The notes under the pieces were generated by a model that made no database searches, was not told where the DNA came from, and saw only the letters and a list, made by a program, of their open reading frames with translations. A program made the position numbers and the translations under genes. From the NCBI RefSeq assembly GCF_024580145.1, contig NZ_JANINI010000005.1:62001-126000 (forward strand): DNA of 64,000 nt, written 5' to 3'. Source of the stretch: Methyloversatilis sp. XJ19-49. Lineage in GTDB: Bacteria > Pseudomonadota > Gammaproteobacteria > Burkholderiales > Rhodocyclaceae. Of the stretch, positions 41,511 through 50,939 are shown piece by piece (the stretch's first letter is position 1; every line of letters begins with the position of its first letter).

Positions 41511-42290
41511 TCAAAGCCCGGTCATTCGCCGTACTGCGGCGAAATACATCCGGTAGGGCAGCAGTCGCAGCAGCAGCAGCCAGCGCGTGAAGCGGTGCGG
41601 AAAGTGGATGTGGAAGTCGCCGCGGGCGAGGCCGTTCAGGATATGCCCCGCCGCTTCGTCGGAGGAAATGAGGGCCGGCATCTTGAAGTCGTTCTGAGCG
41701 GTCAGCGGTGTTTCGACGAAGCCGGGGCAGACCAGATGCACGCCCAGCCCGCGCGGCCGCACGTCCATGAAGAGCGTTTCGGCGAAATTGATCAGCGCCG
41801 CCTTGGTCGCACCGTAGATGATGGCCTTCGGCAGGCCGCGATAACCCGCCACGCTGGACAGGATGACCATCGCACCCGACTGCGCGGCGAGCATGCCGGG
41901 CAGCACTGCGGCACAGCCCTTCATGACGGCGGCGACATTGGTGTTCAGCGTGGCGTCGATGTCGGCCGGATCCAGTTCCCAGGCACGCACCGCCTGATAG
42001 CGAGCGGCGACGAACAGCACGGCATCGATGCCGCCCCAGCGCGCGGTCAGCGTGGCGGCCGCATGCGCCAGTGCGTCGGGTTCGGCCACGTCGAGCGGCA
42101 GCACCACGGCCTGGGGAGACAGCGAACCCAGCTGCGCGAGCTTGTCCGCACTGCGCGCCGACAACGCCACCCGGGCGCCGTCGGCCATCAGCCGTCGCGC
42201 CAGCGCTTCGCCGATGCCGGACGATGCGCCGATGAGCCAGACGCGTTTGCCCGACCAGTCGGCCAGCGGCGGATTCAGCGGCGCAAACAT
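41511..42290 (-). CDS. Short-chain dehydrogenase/reductase (photo-oxidative stress cluster)
   Basis: A 259-residue classical SDR: the nucleotide-binding GASSGIGEALARRL, the NTNVAAVMKG segment, the catalytic Ser in VILSSVAGYRG and the Y-x3-K pair in IIYGATKAALINFAE. The C-terminus is hydrophobic (RWLLLLRLLPYRMYFAAVRR), suggesting membrane association and a lipid-like substrate. It is the last of seven genes (47936 to 41511) that all overlap by 1-4 bases; its ATG overlaps the DUF3833 stop (TGATG). Confidence 0.92.
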   Translation of the reverse strand: MFAPLNPPLADWSGKRVWLIGASSGIGEALARRLMADGARVALSARSADKLAQLGSLSPQAVVLPLDVAEPDALAHAAATLTARWGGIDAVLFVAARYQAVRAWELDPADIDATLNTNVAAVMKGCAAVLPGMLAAQSGAMVILSSVAGYRGLPKAIIYGATKAALINFAETLFMDVRPRGLGVHLVCPGFVETPLTAQNDFKMPALISSDEAAGHILNGLARGDFHIHFPHRFTRWLLLLRLLPYRMYFAAVRRMTGL

Positions 42291-42841
42291 CAGGGCGCGC
42301 CGCGAGTGAACGACAGCGTCACCTCGCCGAGGTGGAAGCCGAATTTGCTCATTGCCGAGCGGTTGAGCATCACCTTGTCGTCGATCATGTACATCCAGTC
42401 GTCGAAGTCGACGTTGTAGACGCTGCCATCGACCGGCAACGCCAGCACGTAACGCCAGCGCAGCGCACTGCCGCTTGCCTCGCCGGTCGCTTCGCCGACG
42501 ACATCGTCGGCACGGCCAATGTAGCGCCCGTTGCCCAGATCCCTGATGGTCCACACGCGGCGGCTGGTCGTGCCGTCGCTCCATGAAAAGTGTTCGTCCA
42601 GCGTGCCGGTGTCGCCTTCCCAGCGCGCCTCGATGCGCACCGTGAACCGCTTGATCACCTCGCCGCCTCGGTCCTGGAACATGCCCCAGCCATTGACCGT
42701 GCCGTTGAAGTAGGTGCGCAGGTCCATGACAGGCTTCTGCCCTGCATAACGATCGACCGCCACGCCGCCACATCCGGCCACCAGTACGGCAGCGCACAAC
42801 GCACCGATGAAGCTCCGCATCCGCCAGAACATCGATTTCAC
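42290..42841 (-). CDS. DUF3833 family lipoprotein
   Basis: A 183-residue lipoprotein with a signal peptide ending in the lipobox LVAGC (SFIGALCAAVLVAGC). The body matches DUF3833 (DLRTYFNGTVNGWGMFQDRG, then WTIRDLGNGRYIGRADDVVG and DDWMYMIDDKVMLNRSAMSK). It has a lipocalin-like beta pattern and probably sits in the outer membrane. The family co-occurs with SDR, CFA-synthase-like and chalcone-isomerase-like genes. It overlaps the MFS gene by 4 bases. Confidence 0.88.
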   Translation of the reverse strand: MKSMFWRMRSFIGALCAAVLVAGCGGVAVDRYAGQKPVMDLRTYFNGTVNGWGMFQDRGGEVIKRFTVRIEARWEGDTGTLDEHFSWSDGTTSRRVWTIRDLGNGRYIGRADDVVGEATGEASGSALRWRYVLALPVDGSVYNVDFDDWMYMIDDKVMLNRSAMSKFGFHLGEVTLSFTRGAP

Positions 42842-44154
42842 GATTTCAGTCCTCCGTATTCGGCTTCGGTTGCCATGTCCGTTCCCGCTGGGTTGTTCAA
42901 TTCGGGTTCCACTCCCGGTTCAAGCCAGTCCGCATGGCGCCACAGCAGCACGCAGGCGGCTGCCTTGAGCACCAACGGCACCAGCCCATAGACCGCAGCC
43001 AGCGCCAGTCGTGCATCGGCATCGGTGGCGCCCGGCTGATAGCCGAGCACGCCCAGCAGCGGCAGTGCCAGACCGGCTGCCAGCGCCAGATTCATCTTGG
43101 TGACGAAGTTCCACACGCCGAAGCTGCCGCCAGCCGACAGCGGTTCATCGCGCCGGCCGACCAGACCGGCCACCAGCGCCGCCGGCAACGCGAGGTCGGC
43201 ACCGAGTGCGATGCCCGAAGCTGCACAGATCAGCATGAAGGCCACGTCATCACCGGGGCCGAGCGTGAACGCCCACGCGAAGACCGATATCGCGAGCACC
43301 ATCGACGCTGCCCAGCTGCGCGCGCGGCCGTAGCGGTCCGACAGGCGTGTCCACAAGGGCAGCGCCAGCACGCCGGCGACGAAGTACAGCGCGAGAAACA
43401 GTCCTTCCCGCTCCGCTGCGCCAAGCACGTCGGCGATGAAGAACAACACGAGGGTGGCCGGAATCGCCGACGCGATCCCGTTGAGCGCAAACACCGCGAG
43501 CAGGCGACGGAAGCGCCGGTTCTGCAGCACCTCGCCCAGCACTGCACGCAGCGGCTCGTGCCGCATCGGCTGTACGCGGCTCGCCTCCGGCACGGCAAAC
43601 AGCGTGATGACGGCACTCACCGCCAGCAGCGGCAGCCAGTACAGCACCGCCTGCCACAGACCCTGCGCCGCATCCGGCGACAGCAAGCCCGGCGCGATGG
43701 ACGCCGCCACGACACCGACCAGCGCACAACCCTCGCGCACCGCGACCAGCCGGGTGCCCAGGGCCGGCGTCGCCGACAGTTCGGCGCCCCAGGCGTAATA
43801 GTTGATGGTGCTGATGCTGTAACCGGCATAGACCAACGCCAGCGCACCGATCAGCCAGAACACCGGATCGGTGCCTTCGGCCGGACGCACCAGTGCAAGC
43901 AGCCCGAGCGCCAGCGGCAGCAAGCCCATCCACACGAGGCGACGACGGCCACGCGCGCGATCACTGGCGGCGCCGATCAGCGGGTCGATCAGGGCGTCGA
44001 GCAGACGCGCTGCGAACAGCACGATGCCGAGCACGGTCAGCGATACACCGAAGCTGTCGGCGTACAGCTTCGGAATGTGTACGTAGATGGGCAATGCCGC
44101 GGCGGCCAGCGGTGCGCCGAGCACGCCATAGGCAAACAGGCGCGCAGATCTCAA
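42838..44154 (-). CDS. MFS transporter (GPH-like cation symporter family)
   Basis: A 438-residue, 12-helix major facilitator. The N-terminal part PIYVHIPKLYADSFGVSLTV and the loop SDRARGRRRLVWMGLLPLAL place it near the glycoside-pentoside-hexuronide:cation symporters. A second cytoplasmic loop motif, LSDRYGRARSWA, follows helix 8. In this gene cluster the cargo is more likely lipid-related than a sugar, but that is inference. The start overlaps the chalcone-isomerase-like gene by 4 bases. Confidence 0.9.
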   Translation of the reverse strand: MRSARLFAYGVLGAPLAAAALPIYVHIPKLYADSFGVSLTVLGIVLFAARLLDALIDPLIGAASDRARGRRRLVWMGLLPLALGLLALVRPAEGTDPVFWLIGALALVYAGYSISTINYYAWGAELSATPALGTRLVAVREGCALVGVVAASIAPGLLSPDAAQGLWQAVLYWLPLLAVSAVITLFAVPEASRVQPMRHEPLRAVLGEVLQNRRFRRLLAVFALNGIASAIPATLVLFFIADVLGAAEREGLFLALYFVAGVLALPLWTRLSDRYGRARSWAASMVLAISVFAWAFTLGPGDDVAFMLICAASGIALGADLALPAALVAGLVGRRDEPLSAGGSFGVWNFVTKMNLALAAGLALPLLGVLGYQPGATDADARLALAAVYGLVPLVLKAAACVLLWRHADWLEPGVEPELNNPAGTDMATEAEYGGLKS

Positions 44155-44675
44155 CTGGACGGGAGCGATTCGGCCAGCAGACGGGCGCGCAGCTTCGGCT
44201 CGCGGGTGCGGGCGTCAAGCCAGATGGCGAAGAAGGCATCGGACAGCGCCTTGTCTTCGATGGCCGGCAGTTCCACGCCCTGATGGAAAAAACGCGCGCT
44301 GCCATCCGTCATCTTCACGCCGGTCAGCACGTCGCCGTCCTTCACGTCGGGGAACACGCCGGTCAGGATGTCCTTCCAGCGCGCCAGACGCTTCTTGTCG
44401 CGTTCGCCCAGCCGCTTGATCTCGTCGATGCTGGCTTCGGCCAGCTTGTAGCCTTCGAACGAGCGGGCATAGCGGATGCTCAGCGCAAAACCGCCGTCCG
44501 GCGAATAGCTGCCACCGGTTGCCCACAAGGAGGCGTCATACAGCTTGAAGCCGAACCAGCGCATCTCACCCTTGCCGAGCGGTTTCAGGTCGGGCAGCAC
44601 GTCGCCGGCCCCCGCCAGAGGCTGGGCGGACGCGATGCCGGCGACCATCAACAACAAGGCAAGCACTCTGCGCAT
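44151..44675 (-). CDS. Chalcone isomerase-like periplasmic protein
   Basis: A 174-residue protein with a signal peptide (MRRVLALLLMVAGIASAQPL) and a chalcone-isomerase-like fold (GEMRWFGFKLYDASLWATGG, then SFEGYKLAEASIDEIKRLGE). Bacterial members are thought to bind fatty acids or hydrophobic ligands rather than to be flavonoid enzymes. GGAGA precedes the ATG. It overlaps the CFA-synthase-like gene by one base (TGATG) and the MFS gene by 4. Confidence 0.88.
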   Translation of the reverse strand: MRRVLALLLMVAGIASAQPLAGAGDVLPDLKPLGKGEMRWFGFKLYDASLWATGGSYSPDGGFALSIRYARSFEGYKLAEASIDEIKRLGERDKKRLARWKDILTGVFPDVKDGDVLTGVKMTDGSARFFHQGVELPAIEDKALSDAFFAIWLDARTREPKLRARLLAESLPSS

Positions 44676-45889
44676 CAGGTTTTCTCCAGATGAAATTGAT
44701 GAACATCGATCGAACCGGCACGGAAACCGGCTTCGCAATACGCCAGATAGAAGCGCCACAGCCGCTGGAAGCGACGATCGAAACCCAGCGCGCGCAAGGC
44801 GTCTGTGCGCGCTTCGAAGGTGGCGCGCCAGCGTGCCAGCGTCAGCGCGTAATCGAGCCCGAAGCGGAAGTCGTCGCGGACGTGCAAGCCGACCTTCTCC
44901 GCCTGCTGCACGAACACGCTGGGCGAGGGCAGCATGCCGCCCGGAAAAATATACTGCTGGATGAAGTCAGTTCCTTTACGGTAACGCGCAAACAGATCGT
45001 CTGCGATGCTGATCGTCTGGATAACCGCCTGACCACCGGACGCCAGCAGGCTGTCGAGCTTGGCGAAGTAGGTCGGCCACCAGCGCTCGCCGACGGCTTC
45101 GAGCATTTCGATCGATACGATGTGCGACGCCTTGCCGCGCAGGTCCCGGTAATCACGCAATTCACAGGTCGCGCGGTCGGCATAGCCGCCACGCTCTGCG
45201 CGCTGTCGCGCCCATGCGAGCTGTGCGGGAGACAGGGTCACACCATGCACGCGCGCACCGGCACGCTGCGCCGCGACCTCGGCAAAACCACCCCAGCCGC
45301 AACCGATCTCGATCACGCTGTCGTCGGCCGACAGCCCCATCACGCGCGCGATGCGCTGGTACTTGGCGAGTTGCGCTGCTTCCAGATCGCGCCGGGAGTC
45401 GCCTTCGTACAGAGCGCTCGAGTAGGTCATGCTGCCGTCCAGCCACAGACCGTAGAACTCGTTGCCCAGATCGTAGTGGGCAACGATGTTCCGGCGGCTG
45501 CCTCGTCGTGTGTTCGCGCGGCCGAGATGGCGCATGCGCGCAAACACCAGTGCCAGCAGGTTGCCGTGCACCGCGCGCTGCAGCGCGTCGCGGTTCTGGG
45601 CAAACAACGTCAGCACACGGCCGAGTTCGTCGGTATCCCACAGGCCGTCGAACCAGGCTTCGCCAAGACCGATGTCGCCGCGCGCGATCACGCGGTCGAA
45701 CACCCCCCAGTCGAGGATGCGCATTTCGACCGGCTGACCTCGGCCGCCGAAAGACACCATTTCTCCGTCCGGAAGAGACATCATCAGCCAGCCGTGCTCG
45801 ATGCGTTCGAGCAGCTTGAATACATGGCGCGCGGCCGATGGGAGCTTTCCGTGTCGCGCAAGCGCGACCATGGCATCCGGTTGGTTCAT
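44675..45889 (-). CDS. Cyclopropane-fatty-acyl-phospholipid synthase family methyltransferase
   Basis: A 404-residue SAM-dependent enzyme that methylates or cyclopropanates double bonds in membrane phospholipid acyl chains. The N-terminal lipid-binding part is followed by a Rossmann methyltransferase with the SAM loop VIEIGCGWGGFAEVAA and the conserved YDLGNEFYGLWLDGSMTYSS. A CfaB-like role in photo-oxidative stress is suggested by the cluster. The start at 45889 overlaps the DUF1365 gene by 4 bases (ATGA). Confidence 0.94.
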   Translation of the reverse strand: MNQPDAMVALARHGKLPSAARHVFKLLERIEHGWLMMSLPDGEMVSFGGRGQPVEMRILDWGVFDRVIARGDIGLGEAWFDGLWDTDELGRVLTLFAQNRDALQRAVHGNLLALVFARMRHLGRANTRRGSRRNIVAHYDLGNEFYGLWLDGSMTYSSALYEGDSRRDLEAAQLAKYQRIARVMGLSADDSVIEIGCGWGGFAEVAAQRAGARVHGVTLSPAQLAWARQRAERGGYADRATCELRDYRDLRGKASHIVSIEMLEAVGERWWPTYFAKLDSLLASGGQAVIQTISIADDLFARYRKGTDFIQQYIFPGGMLPSPSVFVQQAEKVGLHVRDDFRFGLDYALTLARWRATFEARTDALRALGFDRRFQRLWRFYLAYCEAGFRAGSIDVHQFHLEKT

Positions 45890-46656
45890 CGGGTCAATTC
45901 CTGTACTGGAGGAGCCGGTTTTCTGAAAAAGGGCACATGCGCCCGCCACAGGTGAAAGGCCTGGATGTGTATGCGCGCAATCACACCCAGTGTCATCAGC
46001 GGGAAAGCCGCCAGCGCACGCCACGCGACGGCACGACTCATCGGCACGGCGCGACCTGAGACACGGGTACGCAACTGCCGTTCCGCGCCTTCGAAATAAT
46101 CGATCGCCACTGCATGCTGGCTGCCGCGCTGGTCGAAACGGAAGCGGTAGCGACCGCTGACCGGAAAGAAGGGCGACACGTGAAACACCTTGCGTGTCTC
46201 CAGCCATTCGCCGTTCAGGATGGGGCGGCGGTCGTCGTGCGACACCAGGTAGGCATGGCGTTCACCGAAGGTGTTGCTCACCTCGCACAGTACGGCGCGC
46301 AAGGCACCTCCCGCGTCGTGACAGAACCAGAAGCTGACCGGGTTGAACACATAACCGAACAGCCGCGGCATGGTTTGCAGGACCACGTCCCCATCAACGC
46401 CGGCCAACCCCTCCTGCGCCAGCAATGCGCGTATCCACGGCAGCGGATGCGATCCGTCGCGTGCGCCGTGGTCGCGGAAGTGCAACGACAAGGGCGCCCA
46501 GCGGTTCAACGCCAGCATCGGAATTTTCGATGAACCCAGCGTATCGAGTCGGAAGCGCATGAAAAACAACTGATACGCGAAGCGGCGACGAACCCGTGCG
46601 GTCCGCTCATGCATCACTGCGCCGCGGCACAGGCTGACATCGCTGGCAGCCATCAT
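45886..46656 (-). CDS. DUF1365 family protein
   Basis: A 256-residue protein of the DUF1365 family: a conserved start (VMHERTARVRRRFAYQLFFM), the FGYVFNPVSFWFCHDAGG motif and VSPFFPVSGRYRFRF. The function is unknown. The family nearly always lies between a FAD-dependent amine-oxidase-like gene and a CFA-synthase-like gene, as here, so a role in unusual fatty-acid formation is likely. The first ATG may not be the true start; an internal ATG at residue 15 (VMHERT) is an alternative. Confidence 0.9.
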   Translation of the reverse strand: MMAASDVSLCRGAVMHERTARVRRRFAYQLFFMRFRLDTLGSSKIPMLALNRWAPLSLHFRDHGARDGSHPLPWIRALLAQEGLAGVDGDVVLQTMPRLFGYVFNPVSFWFCHDAGGALRAVLCEVSNTFGERHAYLVSHDDRRPILNGEWLETRKVFHVSPFFPVSGRYRFRFDQRGSQHAVAIDYFEGAERQLRTRVSGRAVPMSRAVAWRALAAFPLMTLGVIARIHIQAFHLWRAHVPFFRKPAPPVQELTR

Positions 46657-47936
46657 GCAGCCAGCACCGGCTCGCTGCGTTGCCAGGGCACGTCGGCACC
46701 GAGTTGCCGCGCCACGCGCACCGCCGAGGACAGACCGTCCTCGTGAAAGCCATAGCCCGTCCAGGCGCCGCAGTACCAGATGCGATCGCGGCCCTGGATC
46801 TCGGGCAACCGCTGCTGCGCATCGATCGCCGGGCCATCGAACAGCGGGTGCGCGTACTCGATACGTGCGATCACGCTGGCCGGATCAGGTTCGATGAACG
46901 GGTTCAGCGTCACCACGACAGGCTGTCTGAACGGCAGCGGCTGCAGGCGGTTCATCAGGTACGACACGCTGACCGGCCGTTCGTCAGGTGCGCCTTCTCC
47001 CGCCAGGTAATTCCAGGCCGACCAGACGCGGCGGTTGCGCGGCAACAACTGTGTGTCTGTGTGCAGCACTGCATGGTTGGGCTGATAACGTATGGCGCCA
47101 AGCAGCCTCCGTTCCGCCTGTGTCGCAGCGTCGCCCAGCAAGGCCAGTGACTCATCCGAATGGCTGGCCATCACGATCTGGTCGAAGCATTGAGGCGCGC
47201 CGCCCGCGTCGATCCACACGCCGTCTTCTGCCCGGCGTACACGAGTGACTGCAGCACCACGTCGCACGTCCGATAAAAGAGCAGCCAGCTTTTTCACGTA
47301 CTCGCGCGAGCCGCCACGCACGGTGAGCCACTGCGGTCGGTCATTCACGCGCAGCAACCCGTGGTTGTGGCAGAAGCGGGCAAACGTGGCGAGCGGGTAG
47401 GCCATCATCGTGCGGGTCGGACAGGACCAGATCGCCGCCGCCATCGGCAGCAGATACCAGTCCCGGAAAGCCTCGCTGTAACGATGCTTCACCAGGAACT
47501 CGCCGAGCGAAAGATGCTCGGCGCTGCCATTGGCTGCCCGCTCGGTCACTTCGCTGTTGAAGCGCATGATGTCCTGCAGCATCCGCCAGAACCTGGGGCG
47601 GGCCAGATTCGCCGGCTGCGCAAACACGGTGGCGAGGCTGCTGCCGCTCCACTCGATGCCGGAGTCGCGCAGGCTGACGCCAAAGCTCATCTCGCTGTCC
47701 GCGATGTCCACACCCAGATGAGCGAACAAACCGCAAAGATGCGGGTAGGTCGCCCGGTTGAACACGATGAAACCGGTATCCACCGGGTGGCGTACGCCAT
47801 CCAGTTCGACGTCCAGCGTGTTCGAGTGACCGCCGAGGCGGTCGTGCTGTTCGAACAGGGTGACCTGGTGTTCGCGCGAAAGCAGCCATGCGGCTGCGAG
47901 TCCGGAGATTCCGGAACCCACGACTGCAATCCTCAT
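46653..47936 (-). CDS. NAD(P)/FAD-dependent amine-oxidase-like oxidoreductase
   Basis: A 427-residue flavoprotein with an N-terminal dinucleotide-binding motif (AVVGSGISGLAAAWLLSREH) and the following Glu and GGHSNT region. The C-terminal FAD contact is RIWYCGAWTGYGFHEDGLSS. It resembles desaturase/amine-oxidase-like proteins paired with DUF1365 and CFA-like enzymes. First gene of the seven-gene overlapping run; the 105-bp gap to the glutathione peroxidase gene holds a repeated TTGACACC and may contain a promoter. Confidence 0.93.
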   Translation of the reverse strand: MRIAVVGSGISGLAAAWLLSREHQVTLFEQHDRLGGHSNTLDVELDGVRHPVDTGFIVFNRATYPHLCGLFAHLGVDIADSEMSFGVSLRDSGIEWSGSSLATVFAQPANLARPRFWRMLQDIMRFNSEVTERAANGSAEHLSLGEFLVKHRYSEAFRDWYLLPMAAAIWSCPTRTMMAYPLATFARFCHNHGLLRVNDRPQWLTVRGGSREYVKKLAALLSDVRRGAAVTRVRRAEDGVWIDAGGAPQCFDQIVMASHSDESLALLGDAATQAERRLLGAIRYQPNHAVLHTDTQLLPRNRRVWSAWNYLAGEGAPDERPVSVSYLMNRLQPLPFRQPVVVTLNPFIEPDPASVIARIEYAHPLFDGPAIDAQQRLPEIQGRDRIWYCGAWTGYGFHEDGLSSAVRVARQLGADVPWQRSEPVLAA

Positions 47937-48005
47937 AATTCTCCTGGAAACCGCATTGGATGATGGGCGGCAGGACCCTCCCGCCGCACCAGGCGTAACT
48001 TTACC

Positions 48006-48037
48006 TTGACACCACCCTCGAACGGCAAATTGACACC
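48006..48037. repeat. Direct repeat TTGACACC upstream of the FAD oxidoreductase gene
   Basis: TTGACACC occurs at 48006-48013 and again at 48030-48037, a 24-bp period, in the gap between the oxidoreductase and glutathione peroxidase genes. It could be a regulator or alternative sigma-factor site for the seven-gene run. Short repeats also occur by chance. Confidence 0.4.
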
Positions 48038-48041
48038 CGCT

Positions 48042-48602
48042 TCAACGCGCGAGCGCAGCCTCTATGGCGGCGATCATTTCTGGCGATTCCGGCGCCACAT
48101 TGCTCGGAAACGACGTGATCGTGCTGCCATCTCTCGCAATCAGGTACTTGTGAAAATTCCATGCCGGTTCAACGCCGGTCAGGCGCGTGAGGTCGGAATA
48201 AAAGGGATGGCGCTGCGCCCCTTTCACGACGGTCTTCGAGAACATCGGAAACTTGACGCCATAGGTCATGCTGCAGAACGCCGCGATGTCCTTGTCGCTG
48301 CCCGGTTCCTGATTGCCGAAATCGTTTGACGGAAAACCGAGCACGGTAAATCCGCGCGCACCGAAGCGTGACTGCAGTTTTTCCAATCCATCGTACTGCC
48401 GGGTGAAGCCGCAGCGGCTTGCGGTATTGACGACAAGCAACACACGGCCGCTGAATTCGCACAGCGACTTGGGTTTGCCATCGAGCAGGCCGGGCAGCGA
48501 TCGATCCAGCAGTGTCGGACAGGCTTCAGCCATGGCGGCTCCGGTCGTCAATGTCAAGAGGACAGCAAGCAGCCAGTCAGCGCGACGCACGACTGAGCTC
48601 AC
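48042..48602 (-). CDS. Periplasmic glutathione peroxidase family protein
   Basis: A 186-residue thioredoxin-fold peroxidase with an export signal (RRADWLLAVLLTLTTGAAMA). The peroxidatic residue is Cys64 (NTASRCGFTRQYDGLEKL), not selenocysteine. FPSNDFGNQEPG gives the catalytic Gln, and WNFHKYLI the Trp/Asn. It would reduce hydrogen or lipid peroxides. It starts with GTG and overlaps the end of the preceding small secreted protein by 26 bases, so both are probably transcribed from the divergent promoter at about 48900. Confidence 0.92.
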   Translation of the reverse strand: MSSVVRRADWLLAVLLTLTTGAAMAEACPTLLDRSLPGLLDGKPKSLCEFSGRVLLVVNTASRCGFTRQYDGLEKLQSRFGARGFTVLGFPSNDFGNQEPGSDKDIAAFCSMTYGVKFPMFSKTVVKGAQRHPFYSDLTRLTGVEPAWNFHKYLIARDGSTITSFPSNVAPESPEMIAAIEAALAR

Positions 48603-48849
48603 AACAGCGTACCGTCGTTTCGGAAAACGCCGGCGGCAGGAAATGGATGCCCGTCACCGCGCGATGCAAGTGAATGAGTGTTTCGTTGGGCGTCGGTTTG
48701 TGCGCAGCACCTGCCGGCACTGCCAGTTCGACCTGCGCAGGCTTCGCCGCGGCCGACGGCTCGTCTGCACCCGGCAAGCGTGCCAGGCACACACTGGTGA
48801 GCGCACCCGCTCCTGCGAAAAGAAGTCCCGCGACAACAGCGTGTTTCAT
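48577..48849 (-). CDS. Small exported protein of unknown function
   Basis: A 90-residue protein with an N-terminal signal peptide or anchor (MKHAVVAGLLFAGAGALTSV) followed by an Ala/Pro-rich linker and a short conserved-looking tail (NETLIHLHRAVTGIHFLPPA). I do not recognise a family. It is the first gene of the minus-strand cluster facing the LitR-like regulator. Its ATG has a G-rich ribosome-binding site and lies about 40 bases below a strong predicted promoter. Overlap with the glutathione peroxidase gene implies coupled expression. Confidence 0.7.
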   Translation of the reverse strand: MKHAVVAGLLFAGAGALTSVCLARLPGADEPSAAAKPAQVELAVPAGAAHKPTPNETLIHLHRAVTGIHFLPPAFSETTVRCCELSRASR

Positions 48850-48862
48850 GACTGACCCCCAA

Positions 48863-48879
48863 TTTTGTCCTGGACAAAA
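48863..48879. promoter_or_regulatory. Palindromic operator, copy 1
   Basis: TTTTGTCCTGGACAAAA is a perfect inverted repeat with 8-bp arms and a one-base centre. It covers the -35 hexamer (TGGACA) of the predicted regulator promoter and sits in the leader of the small exported protein gene. It is a likely site for the MerR/B12 regulator encoded next to it. Confidence 0.7.
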
Positions 48880-48899
48880 CCCTCTGTAGCTCTTAATCT
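48871..48899 (+). promoter_or_regulatory. Predicted sigma-70 promoter of the LitR-like gene
   Basis: TGGACA at 48871-48876 and TAATCT at 48894-48899 are separated by 17 bases. The expected transcript start at about 48906 gives a leader of about 36 bases. The -35 lies inside palindrome copy 1. Confidence 0.55.
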
Positions 48900-48923
48900 A
48901 GGGCTCATTGAACGCTTTGTCAA
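48895..48923 (-). promoter_or_regulatory. Predicted sigma-70 promoter of the stress cluster
   Basis: On the minus strand TTGACA (48918-48923) and TAGATT (48895-48900) are separated by exactly 17 bases, a near-consensus promoter. Its -10 overlaps the -10 of the opposing regulator promoter, and its -35 overlaps a TTTGTC half-site at 48916-48921. Expected start about 48888. Confidence 0.65.
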
Positions 48924-48940
48924 TGGTTTGTCCAGGACAA
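48916..48940. promoter_or_regulatory. Operator copy 2: palindrome plus 11-bp-spaced half-site
   Basis: TTGTCCAGGACAA at 48928-48940 repeats the core of copy 1. A further half-site TTTGTC at 48916 lies exactly 11 bp before TTTGTC at 48927, the direct-repeat spacing known for CarH-type operators. It abuts the regulator's ATG (48942) and supplies its AGGA ribosome-binding site, so binding could also block translation initiation or transcription. Confidence 0.65.
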
Positions 48941-48941
48941 T

Positions 48942-49892
48942 ATGAAACACGACGCCAACGGGTCTGGTCGATTGACGATCAGCGCCGTCGAACGCGAAAC
49001 AGGCCTTCCCAAAGACACACTTCGCGTGTGGGAAAGGCGTTACGGGTTCCCTCAGCCCGCCCGAGATGAAGCGGGCGAGCGTCTGTATACGCAGGAAGAC
49101 GTCAATCGGTTGCGCCTGATCCGCAGATTGATCGACCACGGCTGGCGGCCAGGCAAGCTGCTGGCCGCCAGCGAGGCGGATCTGCAGCGGATCATCGAGG
49201 CAGAACGCGTCGCGAGCACGTCAGTTGCGCCGGATGGTGGCGTGCCGACGGACGAAGTACTTGCGGCAATACGGCGCCACGATGTGCCTGCACTCCGCGA
49301 CCTGTTTCAGCGCACCCTGCTCGAGCGGGGACTGCAGGCCCTGGTTTCGGATCTGGTCGCGCCGCTCAACGTGGTCATCGGCGAAGCCTGGATACGCGGC
49401 GAACTGGGCGTTCCCGAAGAGCACTTCTACACCGAGCAGGTGCAAAGCTTCCTGCGCGGCACCCTCGCCGGTTACACCCGACCGGCCGCTCCGCCGCGCA
49501 TCCTGCTCACGACACTGCCGGAGGAGGAACATGGCCTCGGGCTGCTGATGGTGGAGGTAATGCTGGCGTCCGAGGGCGCGCAATGCTGTTCGCTCGGACC
49601 CCGCATGCCACTCACCGACATCCGCACATCGGCCTTGACCTCGGCGGCCGACATCGTCGCGCTCTCCTTCAGCGCCGCTTACCCGCTGCGTCTGGCACTC
49701 GCCGGCGTTCGTACCCTGCGCGACTCTTTGCCGGACACGGTGGATATCTGGGTCGGGGGCGCGGGCGCGCACGAGCGACTGGCAGGCATCCCGGGCGTAT
49801 CAGTCATCGGTGCCATCCGCAGCGTGCCCGACGCATTGGCCGAGTGGCGTGCGGCCAGGTTTCCCGATTCGTCCATCGTCGCCCTCAACTGA
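48942..49892 (+). CDS. MerR family regulator with B12-binding domain (LitR/CarH-type photosensor)
   Basis: A 316-residue, probably light-sensing repressor. An N-terminal MerR HTH (about residues 11-70; SAVERETGLPKDTLRVWERR) is followed by a helical bundle and a cobalamin-binding Rossmann domain. The photoreceptor signatures are present: W150-x9-E160-H161 (AWIRGELGVPEEH), which caps the adenosyl group, and E195-x-H197-x-x-G200 (EEHGLG) for the lower cobalt ligand. The residue after W150 is Ile, where Thermus CarH has a His that ligates cobalt in the light, so photochemistry may differ. It faces a peroxidase and lipid-modification cluster through overlapping promoters and probable operators, implying autoregulation. 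Confidence 0.9.
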   Translation: MKHDANGSGRLTISAVERETGLPKDTLRVWERRYGFPQPARDEAGERLYTQEDVNRLRLIRRLIDHGWRPGKLLAASEADLQRIIEAERVASTSVAPDGGVPTDEVLAAIRRHDVPALRDLFQRTLLERGLQALVSDLVAPLNVVIGEAWIRGELGVPEEHFYTEQVQSFLRGTLAGYTRPAAPPRILLTTLPEEEHGLGLLMVEVMLASEGAQCCSLGPRMPLTDIRTSALTSAADIVALSFSAAYPLRLALAGVRTLRDSLPDTVDIWVGGAGAHERLAGIPGVSVIGAIRSVPDALAEWRAARFPDSSIVALN

Positions 49893-50108: not shown

Positions 50109-50939
50109 ATGCTCTACCCCGAACTGTTCAAGTCACTCGAATCCGCCCGCTGGGACATGGACAAAGACGTGCCTTGGGACGGTTTCGATGCGTCGCTGCT
50201 GTCGGACGAACAGGCGCTGACCATCAAGATGAATGCCATCACCGAGTGGTCGGCGCTGCCGGCGACCGAAATGTTCCTGCGCGACAACCGCGACGACTCC
50301 GACTTCTGCGCCTTCATGTCTGTGTGGTTCTATGAGGAACAGAAGCATTCGCTGGTGCTGCTCGAATACCTGCGCCGCTTCCGACCCGACCTGTCACCGA
50401 CCGAGCAGGAACTGCACGAGGTGCGTTTCGAATTCGATCCCGCACCGGCACTGGAAACGCTGATGCTGCATTTCTGCGGCGAAGTTCGGCTGACCCAGTG
50501 GTACCGCCGTGCGTCGGAATGGCACACCGAGCCGGTCATCAAGCACATCTATGGCCTGCTGTCGCGCGATGAGGCGCGGCATGGCGGCGCCTATCTGAAG
50601 TACATGAAGCGTGCGATCGAGCGCACCGGCGACACCGCGCGTGCAGCGTTTTCCAAGATCGGCATGCTGATGGCAGCCAGTGGGCGCGCCGGCAAGCCGC
50701 TGCACCCAACCAATCTGCATGTCAGCAAGACGCTGTACCCGCGCGACACGATACAGTCCCGCCTGCCCGACCCTGACTGGCTGGAGCACTGGCTGGACCA
50801 GCAGATCCGTTTCGACAAGGACTGCGAGGCGCGCGTCATCGGCGGCATCCTGCGCAATCTCAGTTCGCTGTTCGGCGAAAGTTTCAAGACCATCGGCGAC
50901 CTGAACCGCTTCCGCAAGCAGTTCGCCACGGCAGCTTGA
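50109..50939 (+). CDS. Ferritin-like di-iron family protein
   Basis: A 276-residue helical protein with two di-iron-type motifs, E-E-x-x-H ([14 protein letters not shown]) and D-E-x-x-H ([15 protein letters not shown]), plus an acidic residue in ALPATEMFL. It is related to ferritin-like and acyl-ACP-desaturase-like oxygen-activating proteins. The substrate is unknown. GAGGAG precedes the ATG at good spacing. It is followed, with a one-base overlap, by the heptose-phosphate adenylyltransferase gene. TGTACA at 50045-50050 resembles half of a LitR site but is a single short match. Confidence 0.82.

Follow-up and report, generated by a model that had tools for sequence, protein, structure and literature searches.

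The litR locus and its probable furan-lipid genes

We examined a 64,000-nucleotide stretch of the Methyloversatilis sp. XJ19-49 genome (the window; positions 62001-126000 of its contig, in a genome of 4.1 Mb), in which a gene for a LitR/CarH-type regulator stands back to back with a cluster of nine minus-strand genes (41511-48849) across an intergenic region of 92 bp. A first-pass annotation of this DNA had seen here a probable light-sensing B12 regulator facing a photo-oxidative membrane-lipid cluster. All ten genes and their families are as it listed them (Pfam profile matches, positions confirmed), and the UfaM-, UfaD- and UfaO-type genes among them support the lipid assignment at the level of sequence. 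Together, the results point to a real and conserved furan-lipid operon under a B12-type LitR, probably controlled by light. The genes are as follows:

48942..49892, plus strand: LitR/CarH-type MerR-B12 regulator, 316 amino acids (aa), with Ile151 at the position of CarH His132 (Pfam, CarH alignment, motifs)
48577..48849, minus strand: 90-aa small protein with a signal-like N-terminus, first gene of the cluster (open reading frames (ORFs) at the same place in other genera)
48042..48602, minus strand: glutathione peroxidase (gpx) with an N-terminal signal-like segment, PgpD-like (Pfam GSHPx, N-terminus)
46653..47936, minus strand: flavin adenine dinucleotide (FAD) oxidoreductase, probable UfaD (Amino_oxidase; UfaD identity from the order UfaD-UfaO-UfaM)
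45886..46656, minus strand: DUF1365 protein, UfaO homologue (Pfam; DUF1365 is contained in UfaO, PMC7380195)
44675..45889, minus strand: cyclopropane fatty acid (CFA)-synthase-like methyltransferase, UfaM-like (CMAS; Cys to Ser, EH to EA and LLHTI His to Gln relative to five solved enzymes)
44151..44675, minus strand: chalcone-isomerase-like protein with a signal-like N-terminus (Chalcone_3, start position)
42838..44154, minus strand: MFS_2 (GPH-type) carrier (Pfam, NCBIfam)
42290..42841, minus strand: DUF3833 protein with a lipobox-like VAGC (Pfam, start position)
41511..42290, minus strand: short-chain dehydrogenase (SDR) (adh_short)
50109..50939, plus strand: ferritin-like FA_desaturase_2/AurF-type di-iron protein downstream of litR, often linked, membership uncertain (Pfam, linkage)

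Seven of the nine minus-strand genes form a core tied by six overlaps of 1-4 bp (SDR/DUF3833, 1 bp; DUF3833/MFS, 4; MFS/chalcone isomerase, 4; chalcone isomerase/CFA, 1; CFA/DUF1365, 4; DUF1365/FAD, 4), and the earlier count of seven genes overlapping by 1-4 bases was right in substance. A gap of 105 bp separates the FAD gene from gpx, which itself overlaps the 90-aa gene by 26 bp. For comparison, 78 named LitR loci were taken, a non-exhaustive set drawn from the best 80 matches of a scan whose patterns included the Glu-His (EH) pair of the B12 motif; 61 of them have at least 8.9 kb upstream. All seven core genes lie divergent from litR in 49 of these 61 loci, the FAD-DUF1365-CFA triple is present in 54 and gpx in 27; BLAST finds a relative of the 90-aa protein at 2 of them. 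Because gene order and divergence recur across loci, the arrangement is not due to chance.

The core resembles a described pathway. The enzymes UfaM, UfaD and UfaO of R. sphaeroides and R. palustris make a methyl furan fatty acid out of the cis-vaccenate in phospholipids; RSP1087-1089 are dispensable for furan synthesis, UfaO contains DUF1365, and the R. palustris trio is RPA2571-2570-2569 (PMC7380195). The first-pass annotation had counted the DUF genes as undescribed, which does not hold for DUF1365, the domain of UfaO. The window has the trio together, assigned by family rather than by direct alignment to the Rhodobacter sequences, in the R. palustris order FAD oxidoreductase-DUF1365-CFA-like, and from this order the FAD enzyme is probably UfaD. 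The cluster core would thus represent the known furan-fatty-acid pathway, with a furan lipid as its presumed product. The same three counterparts are shared with the Rhodobacter RpoE-ChrR regulon (RSP1087-1091 plus ufaM; PMC7380195), and the Shewanella rpoE2-chrR regulon has a periplasmic glutathione peroxidase, PgpD, matched here by gpx, together with a phrB-cfa operon (PMC4336711).

The CFA-like protein departs at three places from five solved cyclopropane and mycolate enzymes: it has YSS for YSC, LEA for FEH and, in VIQTI, Gln for the His of LLHTI (LIHGI in one of the five). Across 94 aligned rows, window and duplicates included, 92 have this Gln and the other two are paralogues with about 26% identity, and the Cys place holds Ser in 73, Ala in 19 and Cys in 2. 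The Cys, Glu and His of CFA enzymes form part of the bicarbonate pocket through which ring closure becomes possible, and loss of these residues would fit a methylating, non-cyclopropanating UfaM.

Paired sites around the cluster promoter

The intergenic region contains two perfect palindromes, TTGTCCWGGACAA, 63 bp apart and on either side of a sigma-70-like promoter, an arrangement met again in many Betaproteobacteria. The predicted control elements are:

48865..48877, no strand: operator I (predicted), TTGTCCTGGACAA; holds the -35 element (TGGACA) of the proposed litR promoter and lies downstream of the cluster's proposed transcription start
48928..48940, no strand: operator II (predicted), TTGTCCAGGACAA; ends 4 bp before the cluster -35 and adjoins the litR start codon
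48895..48923, minus strand: sigma-70-like cluster promoter, TTGACA-N17-TAGATT (promoter scan; conserved in relatives)
48871..48899, plus strand: proposed litR promoter, TGGACA-N17-TAATCT (by eye, absent from the promoter-scan list; same geometry in same-genus relatives)

The whole 4.1-Mb genome has just two exact matches to TTGTCCNGGACAA, and these are the two in this intergenic region. Both sites are exact and 63 bp apart in 12 of 26 loci, namely in the window, in each of the 10 same-genus relatives that have LitR and in one locus of another genus (L047); the remaining 14 have weaker, single or no sites. Of the 78 named loci, 72 carry a site with at most one mismatch within -300 to +40 of litR, against 17 such sites in 1.29 million flanking positions. 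When up to two mismatches are allowed within -150 to +40, the spacing of the two sites is 63 bp in 39 of 61 loci and 73-76 bp, about one turn more, in 12. In 42 of 74 loci the cluster strand has TTGA[CT] starting 3-5 nt beyond the litR-proximal site, with a distance of 4 nt in 37 of them, against a background of 1.3%. In one genome, G029, litR lies 1.8 Mb from the cluster, which is there led by gpx and folE2 and has its own pair of sites ahead of gpx, 74 bp apart and one with a mismatch, around TTGACA-N17-TATATT.

Of 61 related genomes, LitR was found in 27 and not in the other 34; the exact TTGTCYWRGACAA occurs in 22 of the former and 3 of the latter (Fisher 6e-9, ignoring relatedness), and the reversed control of the same motif in 14 and 12, respectively. 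In 19 of the 22 site-bearing LitR genomes a site adjoins litR or, as in G020, falls between it and the DUF1365 gene. Other LitR genomes have sites ahead of an SDR and a photolyase-type FAD protein (G039), ahead of a fasciclin protein (G046), and ahead of SDR-DUF3429-ABC1 genes opposite a flavoprotein (G027), while further sites are intragenic or precede genes with no clear connection, for example one for a WYL regulator. The three exact sites in LitR-free genomes were set aside; all fall within predicted genes (for an rfbC-type dTDP-sugar epimerase, an NAD kinase and a glycosyltransferase), and the one in the epimerase gene encodes FVQDN by chance.

We also looked for a second regulon promoter in the window's own genome. 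With up to one mismatch, TTGTCYWRGACAA gives three more places there, none tied to a photoprotective gene (the reversed control at this stringency gives 20 places in all), and the 3.4-3.6 kb read at the genome's photolyase loci contain no site within two mismatches. At this stringency, the regulon in this genome may consist of this one promoter. The two photolyase stretches, C15:12842 and C16:11783, have the same score and ORF list, reflecting either a duplication or an assembly artefact.

The regulator, its proposed switch and the alternatives

The regulator contains MerR_1, B12-binding_2 (35 bits, cut-off 23) and B12-binding domains, the last at 28.1 bits, below its cut-off of 32.1. Residues 7-299 align with Thermus thermophilus CarH (3whp/5c8d; E 3e-34), and W150-x9-E160-H161 and E195-x-H197-x-x-G200 are intact; domain matches and alignment thus confirm the MerR/B12 regulator that had been recognised from these two motifs. 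The window LitR is 91% identical to that of a Methyloversatilis metagenome-assembled genome. The adenosyl-contacting W-x9-EH residues are kept in 26 of 26 loci, and the Trp, the EH pair and the lower-ligand His in 104 of 104 aligned LitRs, a set that contains duplicates (some genomes are represented by both a named and an unnamed locus) and in which the EH is kept partly by construction for the 78 pattern-found loci. The genome encodes a PduO-type adenosyltransferase (192.6 bits); a CobA-type enzyme was not found in it. By sequence, we consider the protein a probable LitR/CarH regulator of the adenosylcobalamin (AdoCbl) type. It is like T. thermophilus CarH in its MerR-type DNA-binding domain, its four-helix and Rossmann B12 domains and both motifs, but CarH has carotenoid genes where lipid genes are faced here, His132 where Ile is found here, and an operator of three tandem 11-bp repeats (PMC9304148) where there are paired inverted-repeat sites 63 bp apart. 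Two other classes were considered and dropped. In class II LitR only the four-helix part is kept and the B12 residues are lost, whereas both B12 parts and their residues are present here; the C-terminus of class III LitR has no similarity to a B12 domain, and the class III protein of Burkholderia multivorans (via PMC9758184) is likewise betaproteobacterial, but the domain is intact only here.

LitR and the lipid genes occur together. In the 61 related genomes LitR was found in 27 and DUF1365 in 33, the latter in 27 of 27 LitR genomes versus 6 of 34 without LitR (Fisher 7e-12, ignoring relatedness); both same-genus genomes without LitR also lack DUF1365. RpoE-ChrR regulons are under sigma/anti-sigma control, whereas no ChrR above the cut-off was found in the window's own genome (best 29.6 bits, cut-off 124.5). 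ChrR exceeds the cut-off in one of the 61 relatives, G035, where, in this one genus of the family, a sigma factor and ChrR stand beside UfaD-UfaO-UfaM and LitR was not found. In G040 and G049 a TetR protein stands beside the ufa module, and in G014, G024 and G054 no regulator was identified by it. Class-wide, DUF1365 is present in 78 of 274 genomes. Forty of these loci (stretches of up to 19 kb) were taken, of which 12 have a LitR-type gene, 8 RpoE and ChrR, 1 RpoE alone and 19 neither; LitR and ChrR occur together in none of the 40 (chance of no overlap 0.04 under independence). W-x9-EH and ExH are retained in eight of the 12 LitR-type genes, and in two of these eight Ala replaces the final Gly; the LitR-type gene at L230 was matched by its DNA-binding part only. 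Because the module adjoins RpoE-ChrR or TetR elsewhere, and never LitR and ChrR together, these data support the earlier suggestion that a B12 photosensor here replaces a sigma/anti-sigma switch. A single photo-oxidative lipid module beside LitR, RpoE-ChrR or TetR hints that damage sensing may have given way to light sensing.

Other LitR-type genes also lie near ufa modules. A second type of B12-motif LitR occurs at L173, L174, L175, L201, L207, L214, L216 and L227; those of L173-L175 are about 30% identical to the window LitR, and at L173 the gene is followed by a distant CFA-like paralogue keeping EH and His. At L217, L218, L222 and L230, which belong to four different families, the LitR-type genes near ufa clusters are without B12 motifs, perhaps through repeated loss of B12 sensing, although that of L230 may be another MerR protein.

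In the light state of CarH, His132 is the second cobalt ligand (PMC10442372). The residue after the motif Trp is Ile151 in the window and, in the 104 LitRs, Met in 41, Leu in 27, Ile in 9, Ala in 9, Val in 7, Glu in 5 and others in 6, but never His; this residue was not part of the scan pattern that found the named loci. His is also absent from this place in 8 further class-wide B12-type LitRs. The role of His132 is disputed: H132A CarH was mostly tetrameric in the light in one study, while an earlier contrary report, cited there, had it dissociate in the light (PMC10442372), and CtMerR, treated as a B12 photoreceptor, has Arg at this position, with no bis-His state seen (PMC11796333). His132 is present in "many" myxobacterial CarH homologues (PMC9304148), and because it is only many, its lack does not exclude membership of the wider family. 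We tentatively propose, with slightly more doubt than confidence, a proteobacterial B12-photoreceptor lineage that lacks the bis-His state and switches by loss of the adenosyl group alone (Met, Leu, Ile, Val or Ala mostly replacing His132), with paired, helically phased operators, light wired directly to furan-lipid synthesis, and a new small secreted protein first in the operon. Probable B12 photoreceptors without the key His would make the dispute over His132 testable with natural proteins.

Overall, we consider it likely that the locus is a light-relieved LitR repression switch for membrane protection. In the dark, AdoCbl-loaded LitR would be bound to both TTGTCCWGGACAA operators, which lie six helical turns apart and flank overlapping divergent sigma-70 promoters, so that litR and the operon would be shut. 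In the light, photolysis of the Co-C bond would weaken the LitR oligomer or its grip on DNA, and both promoters would open. UfaM, UfaD and UfaO would then turn cis-vaccenoyl phospholipid chains into methyl furan fatty acids, with the periplasmic peroxidase and accessory proteins made alongside. We infer AdoCbl binding and the furan lipid product, as well as light as the signal (from the pocket residues and the Pseudomonas LitR systems) and repression (because the sites flank the promoter).

In Pseudomonas, LitR proteins together with light-oxygen-voltage (LOV) proteins make folE2, ufaM and phrB light-inducible (PMC8508746, PMC9758184), and the pmlR1 region, which contains ufaM, has a light-inducible promoter with two sites placed likewise, to which PmlR2 binds in vitro (PMC9758184). 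The class II LitRs concerned, PmlR and PplR, go with light-inducible UfaM, an FAD oxidoreductase, an SDR and folE2, and one of their sites lies at the -35 and one between transcription start and ATG, as here; however, the B12-binding residues lost there are kept here, and the consensus T(G/A)TACA-N12-TGTA(C/T)A differs from TTGTCCWGGACAA (PMC9758184, PMC8508746). Light control of ufa genes by LitR is already known from Pseudomonas, under these B12-less class II proteins (PMC9758184, PMC8508746). For an AdoCbl-type LitR with a ufa cluster, our literature search of open-licence papers found no paper among the matches listed. What is new is the design of the sites, a lineage without His132, the exchange of regulators and the small protein. 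For probable B12 photoreceptors the locus names a conserved control site and a regulon, and it singles out a genus suited to measuring light-induced furan fatty acids.

Several observations weigh against such a switch. The reversed-pattern control for the exact motif also occurs at two places in the window's own genome, and because it is equally frequent, genome counts alone prove nothing; the evidence is site position and conservation, and it was on these that a chance origin of the palindromes was rejected. The exact site is absent from 5 of 27 LitR genomes, and in G019, G037 and G041 the sole exact site lies elsewhere, in one case inside an rfbC-like gene. An 11-bp TnnACA repeat like that of known CarH operators, here TGGACA and TTGACA with TTGACA as the -35, is shared by the window and 8 of 10 same-genus relatives (9 loci out of 11), whereas of the 15 other loci just one has it. 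The score against the NCBIfam CarH equivalog NF052513 is 144.9 bits, below its cut-off of 400, and the regulator is therefore not filed as CarH itself. Finally, because Ile replaces His132 and H132A CarH is mostly tetrameric in the light, the known mode of DNA release on photolysis may not apply.

This last point would suit a LitR that senses the level of AdoCbl, that is, B12 status, and represses whenever AdoCbl is present, light being irrelevant and no switching taking place without His132. The lack of His after the motif Trp, in the 104 LitRs and the 8 class-wide B12-type ones alike, favours this idea, as does the tetrameric H132A protein (PMC10442372). We nonetheless think it unlikely, given that the adenosyl contacts are kept in 26 of 26 loci, that the linked and site-bearing genes are photoprotective in type, that CtMerR is treated as a photoreceptor with Arg (PMC11796333), and that H132A dissociated in the light in the earlier report (cited in PMC10442372). 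Slightly less likely still is that LitR acts as an effector responding to singlet oxygen or other reactive oxygen species (ROS), directly or via a partner such as a short LOV protein. In Pseudomonas a short LOV protein has class II LitR as its effector (PMC9758184), a V. cholerae MerR protein has been proposed to respond to ROS (PMC5241685), and four LitR-type neighbours of ufa clusters are without B12 motifs; yet none of the 104 LitRs has lost the Trp, the EH pair or the lower-ligand His, the EH partly by construction at 78 loci, and a LOV partner may still exist in this genome. Least probable, in our view, is that the methyltransferase works as a normal cyclopropane synthase, so that the products of the cluster would be cyclopropane fatty acids, or fatty acids that are methylated and no more, rather than furans. 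Its best structural matches are indeed CFA synthases, but YSS, LEA and VIQ stand where the five solved enzymes have YSC, FEH and His, Gln is found in 92 of 94 rows, and the DUF1365 and FAD genes accompany the methyltransferase gene in 54 of 61 loci.

The small protein and neighbouring genes

The 90-aa protein of the window matches no Pfam or NCBIfam family. Its dN/dS is 0.13-0.29 against six genus relatives (own Nei-Gojobori script), indicating purifying selection on the reading frame, and ORFs stand at the same place in other genera. There are 79 distinct candidate ORFs. A hydrophobic N-terminus together with a Shine-Dalgarno-like site marks 40 of them, and all 40 contain a hydrophobic-rich stretch before a His that is followed by R, Q, N, S, T, E, D or V. 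In 500 shuffles this motif reached a mean of 13.6 and a maximum of 22, against the 40 observed, a count favoured by a frame choice that credited a related motif and by many close relatives. The other 39 candidates look like chance, so that many loci would be without such a gene. Judged from these sequences, the 90-residue protein is genuine and evolves fast, and its counterparts in other genera share a C-terminal motif of the hydrophobic-H-R/Q/N type. A third operator-like site lies inside the small-protein gene, about -235 to -260 from litR, at L074, L084, L106, L112, L129 and others; in several loci it lies at about -237, and it encodes VQDK or VQDN of the small protein.

The di-iron protein encoded downstream of litR (50109-50939) matches FA_desaturase_2 at 31.6 bits and AurF weakly, and is 91-99% identical within the genus. 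Its gene is present in the stretches of 16 of 25 relatives and 18 of 78 named loci, and the protein is possibly another lipid enzyme of the system. In G024 (L167), in which LitR was not found, the di-iron gene is directly divergent from that for UfaD. At L091, L092, L098 and L178 (Accumulibacter, Zoogloea, Sulfuritalea and G029), folE2 lies between gpx or the small gene and the UfaD gene; its identity was checked by PF02649 for L098 and L178.

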